Part shown: positions 30,392-36,415 of the stretch, in pieces
How positions within the stretch are numbered: the stretch's first letter is position 1
How the letters are laid out: every line of letters begins with the position of its first letter
Assembly: GCA_029861865.1 (NCBI GenBank)
Contig: JAOTYL010000002.1
Location: forward strand, 62,001-126,000
DNA length: 64,000 nucleotides
DNA from: Myxococcales bacterium
GTDB lineage: Bacteria > Myxococcota_A > Polyangia > Polyangiales > Houyiibacteriaceae
Direction: 5' to 3'
The notes under the pieces: generated by a model
The model's database searches: none
What the model saw: only the letters and a program-made list of their open reading frames with translations
What the model was told of the DNA's origin: nothing
Program-made: the position numbers and the translations under genes

Positions 30392-31288
30392 ATGGTTTCC
30401 AAGCTATTCGACCCATCGAAGTGGACAGAGGTTGCGGGCTTCGATCTCAGGGACATCACATACCATCGCGCAAACGATCAGGGCACGGTTCGTGTCGCCT
30501 TTGATCGGCCCGAGGTTCGGAATGCCTTTCGACCGGGCACGGTCGATGAGCTTTACCGCGTCTTGGAGCACGCGCGGCAGACGTCGGACGTCGGTTGTGT
30601 CTTGCTGACGGGCAACGGACCCTCGCCCAAAGATGGAGGCTGGGCATTTTGCTCGGGTGGCGATCAGCGCATCCGGGGCAAGGATGGCTACAAGTACGAA
30701 ACCGATGCCGGCGGCGAAATCGATCCCGCACGGCTCGGACGCTTGCACATTCTTGAAGTCCAACGTTTGATTCGGTTCATGCCCAAGATTGTGATCGCCG
30801 TGGTCCCCGGCTGGGCCGTGGGCGGTGGCCATAGTCTTCACGTCGTCTGCGACATGACGATCGCAAGCCGGGAGCACGCGCTCTTCAAGCAGACCGACCC
30901 AGACGTTGCCAGCTTCGATAGCGGCTACGGCTCCGCATTGCTTGCTCGTCAGGTCGGTCAAAAGAAAGCGCGCGAAGTGTTCTTCGTGGGGCTCGACTAT
31001 GATGCTCGACAAGCCGCCGACATGGGGATGGTCAACGCCGTCGTGCCCCACGCCGAGCTCGAAGACTTCGCCCTTTCATGGGCCGCTGCGATCAATTCCA
31101 AGAGCCCCACGGCCATGCGAATGCTCAAATTCGGCTTCAACATGATCGACGACGGGCTCGTCGGACAGCAGATTTTCGCAGGCGAAGCTACGCGTTTGGC
31201 CTATGGAACGGACGAGGCTCAAGAAGGACGCGATGCCTTTCTCGAAAAACGACCGCAGGACTACCGGAAGTTCCCCTGGCACTACTGA
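30392..31288 (+). CDS. menB: 1,4-dihydroxy-2-naphthoyl-CoA synthase-type crotonase
   Basis: The 298-residue crotonase-fold protein has MenB signatures: GGWAFCSGGDQRIRGKDGY, HILEVQRLIRFMPK, TDPDVASFDSGYGSA and C-terminal EGRDAFLEKR. MenB cyclises o-succinylbenzoyl-CoA in menaquinone synthesis. No other men gene is in this window, so it is an orphan here. It could instead serve a related ring-forming or cleaving step, but the motifs fit MenB well. It is 6 bp from the TetR stop. Confidence 0.88.
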   Translation: MVSKLFDPSKWTEVAGFDLRDITYHRANDQGTVRVAFDRPEVRNAFRPGTVDELYRVLEHARQTSDVGCVLLTGNGPSPKDGGWAFCSGGDQRIRGKDGYKYETDAGGEIDPARLGRLHILEVQRLIRFMPKIVIAVVPGWAVGGGHSLHVVCDMTIASREHALFKQTDPDVASFDSGYGSALLARQVGQKKAREVFFVGLDYDARQAADMGMVNAVVPHAELEDFALSWAAAINSKSPTAMRMLKFGFNMIDDGLVGQQIFAGEATRLAYGTDEAQEGRDAFLEKRPQDYRKFPWHY

Positions 31289-31391
31289 TCGGGGCGCTTC
31301 CTGACTATTTGTCAAAATTAGGCTACCCTTTACCACTTAGACTCACAATCGGCCCTGACACCGAGGGGCTATTCAGAGAACGGAGCAAGTC

Positions 31392-31826
31392 ATTTCAAGC
31401 AAGATATTCGTAGGGAACCTCGACTTTGGAACCACCGATGAGCAGTTACGCGAGCTCTTCGGAGAAATAGGCGAAGTCGTAGACGTTCACATCCCAAAGG
31501 ATCGCGAAACCGGGAGACCCCGAGGATTCGCGTTCGTTCGATTCGCAGCCGAGGAGCACGCCGCCCAAGCCGTCGAGCAAGTCCACGGACGAGAGGTTGC
31601 AGGCCGTGCGCTGCGCCTAGATATTGCCGAGGACCGTCCGCGCCAACCGCGCCCACGACGCGACTTCGGACCGCCGAGAGACCCTGGCGGCTATGACAGC
31701 CACGGGGGCTACAACGATCGTGGCAGCTACAACCGAGGCGGCCACGATGACCGCGGCGGCTACGAGAAGCCCAAGCGCGCCAAGGGAAGCCGACGCGGTC
31801 TTCGCGGCAAGAAGCGCAGCCTGTAA
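31392..31826 (+). CDS. RRM RNA-binding protein, apparent ATT start codon
   Basis: I found this gene by hand translation. The frame is open from a stop at 31356 and has no ATG, GTG or TTG before the conserved domain. ATT at 31392 lies 6 bp after GGAG and gives (M)SSKIFVGNLDFGTTDEQL, exactly where ATG sits in relatives. The domain has RNP2 IFVGNL (residues 5-10) and RNP1 RGFAFVRF (44-51). A Gly/Tyr/Asp/Arg-rich tail and a basic KPKRAKGSRRGLRGKK end follow (144 residues). Single-RRM proteins of this type bind RNA in stress or cold adaptation. A frame error is the alternative explanation. Confidence 0.88.
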   Translation: MSSKIFVGNLDFGTTDEQLRELFGEIGEVVDVHIPKDRETGRPRGFAFVRFAAEEHAAQAVEQVHGREVAGRALRLDIAEDRPRQPRPRRDFGPPRDPGGYDSHGGYNDRGSYNRGGHDDRGGYEKPKRAKGSRRGLRGKKRSL

Positions 31827-31848
31827 CAACAGCGACGGCTTAAAAAAT

Positions 31849-31876
31849 CTCGGGCGAGGTGTGAACCCCGCCCGAG
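31849..31876 (+). terminator. Hairpin after RRM gene
   Basis: CTCGGGCG pairs with CGCCCGAG. An inner GGT/ACC stem caps with a GTGA (GNRA-type) loop across one A-C mismatch. It begins 22 bp after the stop at 31826. The downstream tail is only moderately T-rich, so termination strength is uncertain. The rest of the 269-bp gap up to 32096 shows nothing I can identify beyond an AGGT-n5-ACCT short inverted repeat near 32023. Confidence 0.6.
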
Positions 31877-32095
31877 TGCCCGTTGTGTTGTACCCCCAAG
31901 GAGTGTGATCTCGATTTGCCCTGTGTCGGAGGGTCGCTGATCAGCCGCCGACAGTTGCACGGTAAAGGTTTGGGAGCACGGTTGTCAAGAAGTATTTTTG
32001 GTCACAAATGTACATAAGTTACAGGTAGTTAACCTGAGCGTGCTCACCGAAGAGGACCGGTACGGGCATGTTCTGTCTGGTATTGTTGGCGACGA

Positions 32096-32482
32096 ATGCG
32101 AGGGGGACCATCGAGCTCAGTAGACCTGGAACTGCGGCACGGGGATGTCGTCGAATTCGTGATTCGCGGCTCCTGCATGCCATCGCTGACGAGCGGCGAC
32201 CCCGTCCGCGTGAAGAAGCGCAAAATCTACGCACCGGGAGATGTCGTAGTCGTGCGCCGAAGCGACTACTGGGACGCACATCGCTTCTTGGGATACGCCC
32301 CGACCGCCCGCGGCATGGTCGTGCTGACACAAGCGGACAGCGCCTTACATCCAGACGTGGTTAGCATGCCAACCGCAGTCGTGGGGAGAGTCGAGTGCGA
32401 TGTCACGCTGGCTGACCGCGGCGGGGCGCTCGGGAAATACGCCAAAGCCATTGTCCGACGGGTCTTTGGAGGCCGTAGATGA
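32096..32482 (+). CDS. S24/S26-type serine peptidase-like protein of peptide-modification cluster
   Basis: The 128-residue protein aligns with signal peptidase/LexA-type folds: nucleophile region VIRGSCMPSLTSGDPVRV (Ser26), then PGDVVVVRR and a DAHRFLGY segment. The His there (62) rather than Lys suggests a Ser-His dyad as in S26B peptidases. No transmembrane anchor is visible. Its stop overlaps the kinase start by 4 bp, making it the first gene of the cluster. It may cleave the leader of the precursor, but RiPP-cluster members of this family have no settled role. Confidence 0.75.
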   Translation: MRGGPSSSVDLELRHGDVVEFVIRGSCMPSLTSGDPVRVKKRKIYAPGDVVVVRRSDYWDAHRFLGYAPTARGMVVLTQADSALHPDVVSMPTAVVGRVECDVTLADRGGALGKYAKAIVRRVFGGRR

Positions 32483-33345
32483 GCACGCTCACCCTCGAGT
32501 TCGCTCATTGCCGCTATCGGCTCACAGGGTTGTTGCCCGAGCAAGAGAGGCACGTTCGGGCACGTTTTGGTGCGCTCGAGTGCCCGGCGGCGCTGGCGCC
32601 GGATGTCGAGATCGAAGTCGTCCAGAGTCCAGAGCCCGAGCGTTTCATGGCTAGGCCCATCGGCCCGGTCGAATACCGGGTGGAGATGGCATACGGGGAG
32701 AGGCAAATCGCCATAGCGGGGATTGGCTTTTCAGCGGCCATCGAGCGAGCGTCGTTTCGGACGCAAATGCAGACATGCCTCGGTGACGAATGGTTCTTGA
32801 GCGCGTTTGAGAACCTGCTCCGCGTCGTGGCTGCGTATCGCCTCTTCAGCGTTGGCGCGCTCGTCATCCACAGCGCTGCCTTGTCCGATGGCGAGCGCGG
32901 GTTTCTGTTCTGTGGTCGATCCGGGGCGGGCAAGACTACGATTTGCGTCCTCGCGGACACCCTGCGACTGACCATCTTCAGTGACGAGCTGAATGCGATC
33001 GTGCCGAGCGGTGAATCCTTCTCGCTACAGGCGATGCCGTTCGCAGGCGATTTCGGCGGGACGCCTATCCGGCACCCCCCTTTTCCGCTCACCGGCTTGC
33101 TCGGTCTCGAGCACGCATTGGTGGCACGTCTCGACACCTGCTCGCAAGCCCAGGCGGTTTCGCGTATCGTTGCGTCGTGCCCGTACCTGAACGCGGATCC
33201 CATGGTGTCGGAGCAACTGACCGAGCGTGCCGTTCAGCTCGTCGATCGGATTCCCTTGCGCGTGCTTTCTTTTGCGACGGACACGACCTTCTGGAGCGTA
33301 TTGGATCATGAATACAGAATTGCCCAAGCAGCACTACCGCGTTGA
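32479..33345 (+). CDS. HprK-like kinase of peptide-modification cluster
   Basis: The 288-residue protein has a P-loop GRSGAGKTT at about 146-154, preceded by LVIHSAALSDGERGFLFC and followed by the acidic FSDELNA. This resembles the HPr Ser kinase C-terminal domain and the HprK-related kinases of RiPP (especially lasso) loci. Some of these phosphorylate a C-terminal Ser of the peptide; the precursor here ends in Ser-Ser. It overlaps the PqqD-like gene by 38 bp, so expression is tightly coupled. Confidence 0.82.
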   Translation: MSTLTLEFAHCRYRLTGLLPEQERHVRARFGALECPAALAPDVEIEVVQSPEPERFMARPIGPVEYRVEMAYGERQIAIAGIGFSAAIERASFRTQMQTCLGDEWFLSAFENLLRVVAAYRLFSVGALVIHSAALSDGERGFLFCGRSGAGKTTICVLADTLRLTIFSDELNAIVPSGESFSLQAMPFAGDFGGTPIRHPPFPLTGLLGLEHALVARLDTCSQAQAVSRIVASCPYLNADPMVSEQLTERAVQLVDRIPLRVLSFATDTTFWSVLDHEYRIAQAALPR

Positions 33346-33589
33346 CCCGCACGCTCGCTTTCGTGTGCTGGATGGCGAAGGCATTTTCGTTTTGCAGAAG
33401 GCAGGAGAGGTGTTGGTCATCAACCAGGTTGGCGCATTCATCGTCGAACAGCTCCAAGCTGAACGAACCCTCGACGACGTGGTAACCGCCGTCACCGAAC
33501 GTTACTCCGTGGACCGCGCGCAGGCGCAGACCGATGCTGGCTCGCTCATCGAGGCACTCCTCGAGGCGGGTGCACTCGCAGCCTCATGA
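33308..33589 (+). CDS. PqqD-like RiPP recognition element protein
   Basis: The ATG at 33308 gives a 93-residue protein with a winged-helix PqqD pattern: VLDGEGIFVLQKAGEVLVIN, then QVGAFIVEQLQAERTLDDVV and a helix SLIEALLEAGALAAS. PqqD-like proteins bind the leader of a precursor peptide and present it to the modifying enzyme. It overlaps the kinase gene by 38 bp and the radical SAM gene by 4 bp. Confidence 0.88.
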   Translation: MNTELPKQHYRVDPHARFRVLDGEGIFVLQKAGEVLVINQVGAFIVEQLQAERTLDDVVTAVTERYSVDRAQAQTDAGSLIEALLEAGALAAS

Positions 33590-34641
33590 GCTTCTCTAAC
33601 ACGATCAAGCGCAGCTGGAACGAGAATCGTCTCGTGTCGGTGCTTCTCGAGCTCACTTACGCGTGCAATCTAGACTGCTCGTTCTGTTACAACGACCTCG
33701 CCCTCGAAGGGCAAGAGCTCAGTCTAGCGCAGTACCGGGCGCTGCTTGACGAGCTCGCATCGCTTTCAGTGCTCAACTTGACTCTGAGTGGGGGGGAACC
33801 ACTCGCCCATCCTCACTTCTACGAAATCGGAGGCTACGCACGGAAGCTCGGCTTCGTGGTGCGTCTGAAGAGCAACGGGCACGCGCTCAAAGAGTCGGTG
33901 GCGCGCAGGATCCAGAACGAGGTCGACCCGTTCATCGTCGAGGTGAGCCTCCATGGTGCGATCGCGGCCACCCACGACCGCCAGACCCGTGTCGTAGGAA
34001 GCTTCGACCGTCTCGTGTCCAACGTGCGGGCAATGAAATCGCTCGGCATGCGCCTGAAGGCCAACAGCGTACTAACCCTCTGGAACGAGACCGAGGTCGA
34101 GGCGATGTTCGCGCTCTGTGACGAGCTTGGCGTTCCGCTTCAAATCGACGCCGAGGTAAAACCGAGGGATGACGGCGATGCGAGCCCGCTCGAAATCGCT
34201 GCAAGTGCCTCCGGGTTGGCGAACTACTCGAAAGCCCTTGCTTTACAGCTCAAGGGGGACGAAACGGTCGCTAGCGTGGTCGCCTCTACGCAACGGGAGG
34301 CCAGGGTTGGGACCGAGAAGCATTGCGGTGCCGGCTCCAACCACCTGAGCGTCGATCCCTATGGCAATGTGCTGCCGTGCGTGCAATGGCGGGCCCCCGT
34401 CGGCAATCTGCATGAGCGCGGCATCACCGAGATCTGGGCCGAGTCGATCACGCTTCGAGACGTGCGGCAAACCACCATAGCAGCCCGACGCATGCTGGAA
34501 GATCTGGGCGAAGCGAGTTTGGTCGCGAATTTCTGTCCCGGCGCGGCCCACACGCATTCGGGTGATCCGCTGGCGATGTATCCGGCGGCCCAGCAACGAA
34601 TTGAGCCGGGTCGCGCACGGGTCCGACTTCCTGTATTGTAG
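33586..34641 (+). CDS. Radical SAM/SPASM-like peptide-modifying enzyme (PqqE-like)
   Basis: This 351-residue protein has the radical SAM cluster motif ACNLDCSFC (Cys27, 31, 34), SAM-binding LSGGEP (about 67-72) and EVSLHGA. The C-terminal Cys set HCGAGSNHLSVDPYGNVLPC plus NFCPGAA suggests a SPASM or twitch auxiliary Fe-S site. Enzymes of this type install C-C, thioether or ether crosslinks in RiPP precursors. It is coupled to the PqqD gene and followed 14 bp later by the precursor gene. Confidence 0.9.
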   Translation: MSFSNTIKRSWNENRLVSVLLELTYACNLDCSFCYNDLALEGQELSLAQYRALLDELASLSVLNLTLSGGEPLAHPHFYEIGGYARKLGFVVRLKSNGHALKESVARRIQNEVDPFIVEVSLHGAIAATHDRQTRVVGSFDRLVSNVRAMKSLGMRLKANSVLTLWNETEVEAMFALCDELGVPLQIDAEVKPRDDGDASPLEIAASASGLANYSKALALQLKGDETVASVVASTQREARVGTEKHCGAGSNHLSVDPYGNVLPCVQWRAPVGNLHERGITEIWAESITLRDVRQTTIAARRMLEDLGEASLVANFCPGAAHTHSGDPLAMYPAAQQRIEPGRARVRLPVL

Positions 34642-34655
34642 CCGCGAGGGGCGAA

Positions 34656-34838
34656 GTGGAACGCAAGACCAAGACCGAACAATCCGAATCCGACTCAGAA
34701 TCCGTCGAGCGCGAGCCGTACGAGACGCCACGTGTCGTGTACCGCGAACCTTTGGAGGCCGTTGCAACCGTTTGCACGCCCGCACCACCTGCCAAGAGCA
34801 CTGTGATGGTGTGCCCGAGCGGGCCCATCAGCTCCTGA
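34656..34838 (+). CDS. Candidate RiPP precursor peptide
   Basis: A GTG start with GAGGGG 5-10 bp upstream gives 60 residues. Residues 1-20 are acidic and Ser/Glu-rich. Two YxxP motifs follow in tandem, YETP (22-25) and YREP (29-32), then EAVATVC. The C-terminal 20 residues contain Cys53 and Cys40 precedes them; Pro and Gly are frequent, and the end is GPISS. YxxP is the known recognition motif of lasso-type leaders for PqqD/B1-like proteins. Its position directly after the radical SAM gene makes it the substrate candidate. No homologue is recognised. Confidence 0.72.
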   Translation: MERKTKTEQSESDSESVEREPYETPRVVYREPLEAVATVCTPAPPAKSTVMVCPSGPISS

Positions 34839-34845
34839 TCGCACC

Positions 34846-35673
34846 TCACCAGTGCCGAAGGATGACCGCCCTGACCCCCGAGCGCACGCCGCGCGGGAGC
34901 GAATCGTTCAGTAGGTGAGCGGTGATCGCGCCGATCCGCGAGTAGGGTCCGGCGTTGGCCAGCACGGGGCGTGCGATCGCGGCGACCTTCTCGCCGATCG
35001 GGTCTGGGGGGAGGTGACGGAGCACCCTGGCCGCGAACGGGTCCCCCACGGTTTCGCTTACCAGCGGAAGGACGTACCGGGCGACTCGGCGCATGCCACA
35101 GCGGACGAGATGGCGCGCGACGAGCTCGGGCGACGCTTCGATTCGCCTCGGCATGCGGGCGATTTCATCGAGACGGTCCGTGGACCCCGCGTGCAGATGG
35201 TCGCTCCCGAACTTGCCGATCAAGTGCGCATACGCATCGAGCGGAGACGGGAGGCGCACCGCGGCTTCGAACAGGGCTCGGTCGGGCGAGCTTCGCGAAA
35301 AGACATCCGCGGTGGGCAGCTTGTACCGGGCCGGATCGAAAAGGTGTGGATGCAGATCGAGCGCCAAGCCGAGGGGGCTCCGCATCACGAACGCCCCGAC
35401 GCTGCTACGCCCCATAGGGCGGTAGCCCGCTCGCTCGAGGACATCGTGCACTGCCCAAGCCTGGTGGGGGCGGACCAGTACGTCCACATCGCTCATCGCG
35501 CGCTCCGCCGGGTCGTCGTAGAGCCAGTGCTGAAGAAGAGCGCCCTTGACCGGCATGATGTCGATCCCCGGACGCTCGAGCCTCTGGGCCACGTCGCGAA
35601 CCAACTCCGACGCGATGATCGAGGTAACGGCCCGCCGGCGCATTCGCGCTCTCTCTGCGGTGGTCTGCAGCAC
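34846..35673 (-). CDS. Nucleotidyltransferase-like protein (PF14907 type)
   Basis: The GTG at 35673 (GGGGAG upstream) is preferred because the ATG at 35766 would overlap the divergent gene at 35732. The 275-residue protein has the family motif MPVKGALLQHWLYDD and then ERAMSDVDVLVRPHQAW, with metal-binding Asp pair SDVD (62, 64). Members of this nucleotidyltransferase-fold family occur with HprK-like kinases in lasso and related RiPP loci. Here it is convergent with the precursor gene, 7 bp away. Its substrate is unknown. Confidence 0.82.
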   Translation of the reverse strand: MLQTTAERARMRRRAVTSIIASELVRDVAQRLERPGIDIMPVKGALLQHWLYDDPAERAMSDVDVLVRPHQAWAVHDVLERAGYRPMGRSSVGAFVMRSPLGLALDLHPHLFDPARYKLPTADVFSRSSPDRALFEAAVRLPSPLDAYAHLIGKFGSDHLHAGSTDRLDEIARMPRRIEASPELVARHLVRCGMRRVARYVLPLVSETVGDPFAARVLRHLPPDPIGEKVAAIARPVLANAGPYSRIGAITAHLLNDSLPRGVRSGVRAVILRHW

Positions 35674-35731
35674 TTGGTTGGTCTCCCCGGGGCGTATATA
35701 AAACAATGCGGTTCGGTGGTATAGAGCGCCG

Positions 35732-36415
35732 ATGGGGATAGACCAAAAGCTCGGTGAATTGGCCAATGCGCTCGAGGCACGAGGGGCCGACGAGCTCCGT
35801 GTTCAAGTCGTGCGGCGCGCCCGCGAGTTCAAGCGCTCTTGGGTCATGATGGCGGAGGCGCTGGTCGAGGTTCGAAACCGCGAGGCCTACGTGAAGTGGG
35901 GCTACGACGACTTCTACAGCTACTGCAGTCTCGAGCTCCACATCAAGCGAGCCACTGCGGACAAGCTCACCGGGTCGTACATCGCCCTGAAGCGGCACGC
36001 GCCCGCCATCCTGAAACGAGACGGCCTCACGGAACGGATCCCGACCTGCGATGCGGTCGACTATTTCGCCAAGGCGCTGCAACGGGGCGATCGCGATGAT
36101 GCGATCGAGCCACGCGCGGTCGATGAAGATGTGGTCGATGAGCTCCGGCACGCCGTTTTCGAAGAAGGGGCCCCGGTCACCGAGCTGCGCAAGCGCTTCA
36201 ATCCTGTCTTTCACCCGAAACCCGAAGGCGCCGAACAGATCGAAGAGATTCGGCGGGCGATGACTACCGCAAGAAGACTCGAAAAACTGATCGAAGAGAT
36301 CGACGGCCTCCACCGGCCGACCGTGCGCGCGACGTTGGATAGCCTCGAAGCGTTGCGCGAAGACCTCACCGACCTGCTGGAGCGCACCAAGGCAACCTTT
36401 GCGAGGACCGGATGA
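35732..36415 (+). CDS. Unknown helical protein
   Basis: I do not recognise this 227-residue protein. It is charged and mostly helical. A middle section KWGYDDFYSYCSLELHIKR (near 57-75) looks like a helical DNA-binding or scaffold element followed by a RATADKLTGSYIALKR helix. The C-terminal 60 residues look like a coiled coil (LEKLIEEIDGL...LEALREDLTDLLER). It overlaps the DUF35 gene by 4 bp and so is likely co-transcribed with it and the thiolase-like gene. Confidence 0.7.
   Translation: MGIDQKLGELANALEARGADELRVQVVRRAREFKRSWVMMAEALVEVRNREAYVKWGYDDFYSYCSLELHIKRATADKLTGSYIALKRHAPAILKRDGLTERIPTCDAVDYFAKALQRGDRDDAIEPRAVDEDVVDELRHAVFEEGAPVTELRKRFNPVFHPKPEGAEQIEEIRRAMTTARRLEKLIEEIDGLHRPTVRATLDSLEALREDLTDLLERTKATFARTG

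Follow-up and report, generated by a model that had tools for sequence, protein, structure and literature searches.

A co-inherited Myxococcota gene cassette joining a radical SAM enzyme with lasso-type tailoring proteins: a probable source of a modified ribosomal peptide

What does a gene cassette make when it places accessory proteins of lasso-type loci beside a radical S-adenosylmethionine (SAM) enzyme and a short peptide? The question is raised by six genes in a stretch of 64,000 nucleotides (referred to as the window; assembly GCA_029861865.1, contig JAOTYL010000002.1, positions 62,001 to 126,000 of the forward strand) from a Myxococcales bacterium, whose 4.2 Mb genome belongs to the phylum Myxococcota. 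The six genes are a demonstrated set, co-inherited and behaving as one cassette, and they probably (at a probability of about 0.6, judged from sequence) make a ribosomally synthesised and post-translationally modified peptide (RiPP) in five proposed steps. The evidence comes from sequences and predicted folds, with gene starts placed at the longest open reading frames (ORFs); many of the loci compared lie on contigs of metagenome-assembled genomes (MAGs), and the relatives, sampled mainly from Myxococcota, are phylogenetically related sequences rather than independent samples.

Read directly, the six genes are flanked by an RRM-protein gene and a 227-codon gene. On the plus strand, the cassette begins with an S24/S26 (LexA/signal-peptidase-like) protein that is the likely leader peptidase (32096-32482), followed by an HprK-like kinase (32479-33345), a PqqD-type stand-alone RiPP recognition element (RRE), or leader-binding protein (33308-33589; PF05402, E = 6e-13), a radical SAM enzyme with a reduced SPASM/twitch-like C-terminus (33586-34641; PF04055 and PF13186) and a 60-residue precursor peptide with a GTG start (34656-34838), recognised from family alignments, the ratio of nonsynonymous to synonymous substitution rates (dN/dS) and co-occurrence. 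The S24/HprK and PqqD/radical SAM junctions overlap by 4 bp and the HprK/PqqD junction by 38 bp; a 14-bp gap precedes the 60-codon ORF, and 7 bp separate it from the end of a convergent minus-strand gene for a PF14907 nucleotidyltransferase-fold protein (NTP_transf_5; 34846-35673, GTG start at 35673), whose place and orientation are kept in close relatives and in loci L039 and L044. Matches above the Pfam cut-offs were obtained for PqqD (PF05402, 49.4 bits), Radical_SAM (62.9), SPASM (36.6) and PF14907 (81.7, cut-off 31.2). As expected of a RiPP locus, a leader-recognition element is present and a short precursor with a conserved leader and a variable core lies beside tailoring enzymes.

Direct reading confirmed the gene order, overlaps and 7-bp convergent spacing described in an earlier reading made from the letters alone (the sequence-only reading), and its block of 32096-35673 is a real, discrete unit, although the true extent is slightly larger. 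Same-genus genomes without the cassette retain both flanks, with DNA homology ending near 32,020 and restarting near 35,710, which sets the approximate limits of the whole cassette (32020-35710). The site is cleanly empty in G008 and G012, whereas in G016 a 50-bp remnant of the S24 gene (80% identity to window positions 32,234-32,283; L122:4242-4303) survives at an otherwise empty site, which is direct evidence for decay of the cassette. In G017, the PF14907 gene has left a weak trace at the protein level. In G001 and G003, a different radical SAM peptide cassette occupies exactly the same site (L123:1068-6388 and L121:3961-8100). Its radical SAM enzyme is 25-29% identical to that of the window over the matched part, and it also encodes PqqD, an HprK-like protein, a methyltransferase-like gene, a secreted protein and a distant PF14907 protein (31-32%) in the same convergent place; in its precursor, ASCNPSTCMPGDCNPNGCNPLNCMP, a RRHFLKAAAYTAP leader is followed by five Cys spaced five residues apart (CNPxx repeats). 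The present, empty, relic and replaced states among congeners indicate that the cassette is lost or exchanged as one unit. The site also records a swap between unrelated peptide cassettes, of the G001/G003 and window types.

The 60-codon ORF is a genuine gene. A homologue is in place in all congeners carrying the block, and its dN/dS of 0.21-0.38 (six pairs including the window) indicates purifying selection, compared with mostly 0.08-0.35 for the block enzymes and 0.03-0.06 for flanking housekeeping genes in full-length comparisons; together with phylum-wide co-occurrence, these results rule out a chance ORF. The 35 precursor members have no NCBIfam or Pfam family beyond a chance-level match, and constitute an undescribed, unnamed family spread across Myxococcota. 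P25, E34, C40 and C53 (window numbering) are invariant in all 35 aligned members and Y22 is found in 34. Both Cys of the sequence-only reading are thus invariant and the first of its two YxxP motifs (YETP) is common to the whole family, whereas the second (YREP) is confined to the window's close clade. Conservation of Y22 and P25 and the residues before Cys40 suggest a leader of residues 1-39 (YETP...PLEAVATV; 34656-34772, plus strand) and a core, CTPAPPAKSTVMVCPSGPISS (34773-34835, plus strand), with the two invariant Cys, a C-terminal Ser and a putative boundary at Cys40. Cores implied by a cut before this residue are 13-21 residues long, and the segment between the two Cys varies in length and sequence. 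An unmodified, antitoxin-like or regulatory small protein would fit an ORF that has no curated family match, but it is very unlikely given the leader/core pattern, the invariant Cys pair and the near-constant association with PqqD and radical SAM genes.

This association was followed across the phylum. Homologues of the window radical SAM protein occur in 35 of 97 relatives, and the peptide profile likewise matches in 35, 33 of which also have the radical SAM protein; presence and absence agree in 93 of the 97, an agreement that is partly circular since the 19 profile seeds were drawn from radical SAM loci. The independent and stronger part of the evidence is a further 20 loci reached by the peptide profile alone, all 20 of which lie near HprK, PqqD, radical SAM, S24 or PF14907 genes, most with three or more of these partners and the weakest being truncated contigs. 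Profile matches were found in 40 of 184 genomes of the order and 37 of 379 of the phylum, and nearly every complete locus has the radical SAM gene. The clusters of G034 and G019 contain only PqqD, radical SAM and peptide genes, from which a kinase was predicted elsewhere in these genomes; in both, a kinase homologue immediately adjoins an S24-like gene on a separate contig, accompanied in G034 by a PF14907 gene. This arrangement points to two modules, one for recognition and radical SAM chemistry and the other comprising peptidase, kinase and PF14907 protein. The window genome has one member of this kinase family, the cassette copy. Co-conservation in relatives was the check named by the sequence-only reading, which was run and left that reading unrefuted.

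Viral contigs yielded no relatives. A MAG labelled Chromatiales has HprK, PqqD and a truncated, 56% identical radical SAM gene together at one contig end (L023:4764-6593), which may reflect lateral transfer or mis-binning; no relatives were found in 299 genomes of the phylum of this MAG, a search that had no positive control there and so shows little.

In the first proposed step, by analogy with its family, the PqqD protein would bind the 60-residue precursor via the YxxP...LE leader. The radical SAM enzyme would then modify the core in the region of its invariant Cys pair, the best guess being a thioether or similar Cys-centred cross-link; this is the most conjectural of the five steps. Exactly six Cys are invariant in 11 of 11 close homologues of the enzyme, Cys27/31/34 (CxxxCxxC) and Cys247/265/317, and distant homologues have a fuller set of SPASM Cys. 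By analogy, an auxiliary iron-sulphur site with three conserved Cys would suit a twitch-like cluster able to bind substrate, as has been proposed for SkfB and CteB (PMC8326336). Sactipeptide and ranthipeptide maturases (SkfB, AlbA, CteB) share a radical SAM domain with a SPASM/twitch C-terminus and act with Cys-containing precursors, and the combination of CxxxCxxC motif, auxiliary Cys and Cys-bearing core is found here too; SkfB is among the solved-structure matches of the enzyme. The cassette differs from these systems in that the RRE is a separate PqqD protein and a kinase/nucleotidyltransferase module is added, and the thioether, a feature of the comparison, is here only presumed.

The same enzymes could alternatively make a peptide-derived small molecule, a cofactor or redox carrier like pyrroloquinoline quinone (PQQ) or mycofactocin, with residues cross-linked or excised and the peptide degraded. 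Among named models, the radical SAM enzyme comes closest to those for cofactor maturases (mycofactocin, NirJ/AhbD and PqqE), no exporter gene is encoded within the cassette, and PqqD serves PqqE during PQQ biosynthesis (PMC8326336). Such a product is nevertheless unlikely, since a retained C-terminus is suggested both by the Ser conserved there and by the HprK/PF14907 pair, the inter-Cys core varies in length and sequence, unlike cofactor precursors, and same-site replacement by another peptide type is more typical of a bioactive product. Membership of the GeoRSP, mycofactocin and PqqE families was rejected, all scores falling below the curated cut-offs.

For a modified peptide, the third step would be phosphorylation of the C-terminal Ser side chain by the HprK-like kinase, as performed by PadeK and ThcoK on lasso precursors, a proposal that draws on residue conservation and published chemistry. 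In lasso peptides, HPr-kinase homologues such as the paeninodin kinase phosphorylate the linear precursor on its C-terminal Ser, which is extremely conserved in kinase-bearing clusters (PMC9266682, PMC8498205). In the family described here, 32 of 39 peptides end in Ser and 3 in Thr. The C-terminal Ser is proposed as the kinase site because the cassette shares with phosphorylated lasso peptides both the enzyme types and the substrate residue, here without the lasso machinery. Kinase and S24-like protein both fall below family-model cut-offs and were hence checked by predicted fold; a PDB sequence search had returned no relatives for the kinase, nor for the PF14907 protein. The kinase model (predicted local distance difference test, pLDDT, 90) matches ATP-dependent phosphoenolpyruvate carboxykinases (PEPCK) and HPr kinases, and the Walker A residues G151-K152-T154 are invariant, as are S168-D169 and H131, so that the predicted HPrK/PEPCK fold, Walker A motif and catalytic Asp of a PadeK-type kinase are all represented. 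In the fourth step, the PF14907 protein may add a further group onto the Ser phosphate, as reported for PsmN, which adds hexoses to phospho-Ser; some lasso kinases attach up to four phosphates (PMC9266682, PMC8498205). PsmN, a possible member of PF14907, is taken here as an analogue of the PF14907 protein. Loci L039, L042, L044, L104 and L105 each contain two HprK-like genes, which suggests either kinase-type reactions in two consecutive steps or a kinase paired with a phosphorylase.

In the fifth step, the S24/LexA-like peptidase would cut the leader off just before Cys40 to release a core of about 21 residues. The protein has conserved G-x-[SC]-M, H-R and D motifs, a TIGR02228 match (E = 6e-4) and an AlphaFold model (pLDDT 79) for which LexA C-terminal domains and signal peptidases are mostly the top matches, at E-values above 0.001. 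All 35 precursors have Ala, Ser or Val three residues before Cys40 (position -3), and 33 of the 35 have a small residue (A, S, T, G or V) immediately before it (position -1), a pattern that would fit an AxA-type cut by an S24/S26 enzyme. The nucleophile position is occupied by Cys27 (GSCM) in the window's clade and by Ser (GSSM) in distant relatives, with His62 invariant. The GSCM variant is also found in L031 and in the unlinked copy of G034 (L132).

Several observations count against this five-step scheme. The kinase matches HprK_rel_A weakly, with family-model scores far below the curated cut-offs, and an S24-like protein whose nucleophile position is taken by Cys might lack activity or have a regulatory role. 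The excess of C-terminal Ser (32 of 39 peptides against 15 of 155 enzymes of the same loci) is measured on related sequences and so on dependent samples. The PF14907 gene was undetected in many distant loci, and the G001/G003 precursor ends in Gly despite the HprK-like gene of its cassette, showing that a C-terminal Ser substrate cannot be assumed wherever an HprK-like protein is present. The latter two observations, with the convergent position of the PF14907 gene outside the operon, would also suit a division of labour in which the radical SAM enzyme by itself yields the finished compound, and the HprK-like and PF14907 proteins act in self-protection or regulation, for instance by reversibly inactivating the product or a target. 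This is improbable given that the HprK gene is translationally coupled between the S24 and PqqD genes and that published lasso kinases target exactly the residue with which most of the precursors end.

In its working, the cassette comes closest to a radical SAM RiPP cassette that carries a C-terminal tailoring module of the lasso type, and it is no lasso locus. Phosphorylated lasso peptides (paeninodin PadeK, ThcoK, SyanK; pseudomycoidin PsmK/PsmN) have in common with it a stand-alone RRE, an HprK-like kinase, a nucleotidyltransferase-fold protein, a YxxP leader and a C-terminal Ser; the window cassette lacks their cyclase and transglutaminase-like peptidase and has instead a radical SAM enzyme, an S24-like peptidase and two invariant core Cys. 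Across the whole genome, there is no match to the lasso leader peptidase PF13471 (Transglut_core3), and the best match to the lasso cyclase NF033535 reaches 195 bits against a cut-off of 525, which excludes a lasso locus and extends genome-wide the absence of both enzymes noted in the sequence-only reading. The best NF033535 matches are two generic asparagine-synthase-like proteins on other contigs, and ordinary control genomes likewise score below the cut-off. A degenerate or unconventional lasso pathway, with its cyclase elsewhere in the genome, would account for the PqqD, kinase and nucleotidyltransferase accessories, the YxxP leader and the best PqqD match, to a lasso model (lasso_PqqD_Strm, 42.5 bits, cut-off 70); in addition to the missing peptidase and cyclase, it is contradicted by a core whose first residue is Cys and in which no ring-closing Asp/Glu is conserved and by the near-constant radical SAM gene, and is extremely improbable. 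An asparagine-synthase-like gene beside the precursor in L105 was rejected as a hidden lasso cyclase (220 of 525 bits), its best model being the XrtA amidotransferase; it passes the ordinary asparagine synthase cut-off.

Among other systems, SynChlorMet (ScmC/ScmD/ScmE/ScmF), characterised here by NCBIfam model names only, likewise combines HprK-like, PqqD-like and radical SAM/SPASM proteins in one cassette. Membership is ruled out, as no window protein reaches the curated cut-offs (ScmC 11.8 of 125 bits, ScmD 22.2 of 100, ScmE 69.5 of 400, ScmF 72.8 of 400), although some distant kinase homologues match ScmC with up to 39 bits. The window cassette has one radical SAM gene rather than two, additional S24-like and PF14907 genes and a different precursor family. 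The HPr-rel-A system (TIGR04352/TIGR04353) shares an HprK-related kinase and a PqqD-family protein, and is excluded by a TIGR04352 score of 19.5 against 200 bits for the kinase. No paper joining HprK-like kinases with radical SAM RiPPs was found among the open-licence papers searched, where the sole mention of 'HPr kinase' found in RiPP mining concerned lasso clusters. The hybrid of lasso accessories (HprK-like, PqqD, PF14907) and radical SAM/SPASM enzyme proposed in the sequence-only reading is supported; of its new subtype, the conserved RiPP-type hybrid stands, while the combination of HprK-like, PqqD and radical SAM proteins has a precedent in SynChlorMet.

Whether the cassette defines a new Myxococcota RiPP class, with a radical SAM-modified two-Cys core, finishing at the C-terminal Ser by a lasso-type kinase and PF14907 protein, and an S24/LexA-like leader peptidase of the Ser-to-Cys variant, is more tentative, at somewhat below even odds. 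If so, it would to our knowledge be the first C-terminal phospho(-glycosyl)ation outside lasso peptides, and the C-terminal Ser phosphorylation/nucleotidyltransferase module would be a portable RiPP tailoring unit rather than a lasso peculiarity. For this phylum-wide unnamed precursor family, the enzymes, leader, likely cut site and modified residue are each directly testable.

Most distant loci encode a large exported protein directly upstream of the precursor, with FG-GAP/Ig-like, EGF-like or, in L102, Peptidase_C25 domains, and a C25 protein precedes the kinase or PqqD gene in L034 and L036; none is present in the cassette of the window's genus. These proteins (L039:8815-12702, L044:8486-12289, L095:994-4731, L102:4882-9024, L106:5436-8642, L034:2435-5851 and L036:3325-5418) are possible partners or targets of the peptide.

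Window positions 31,000-36,000 contain no Rfam match. At the left edge of the cassette lies a single-copy intergenic element (31835-32020) that begins with a strong terminator-like hairpin and shows little covariation. It is 81-97% identical in 13 congeners, better conserved than the adjoining RRM-protein coding region (about 70-72%), and could be an RNA gene, a promoter or an insertion hotspot.

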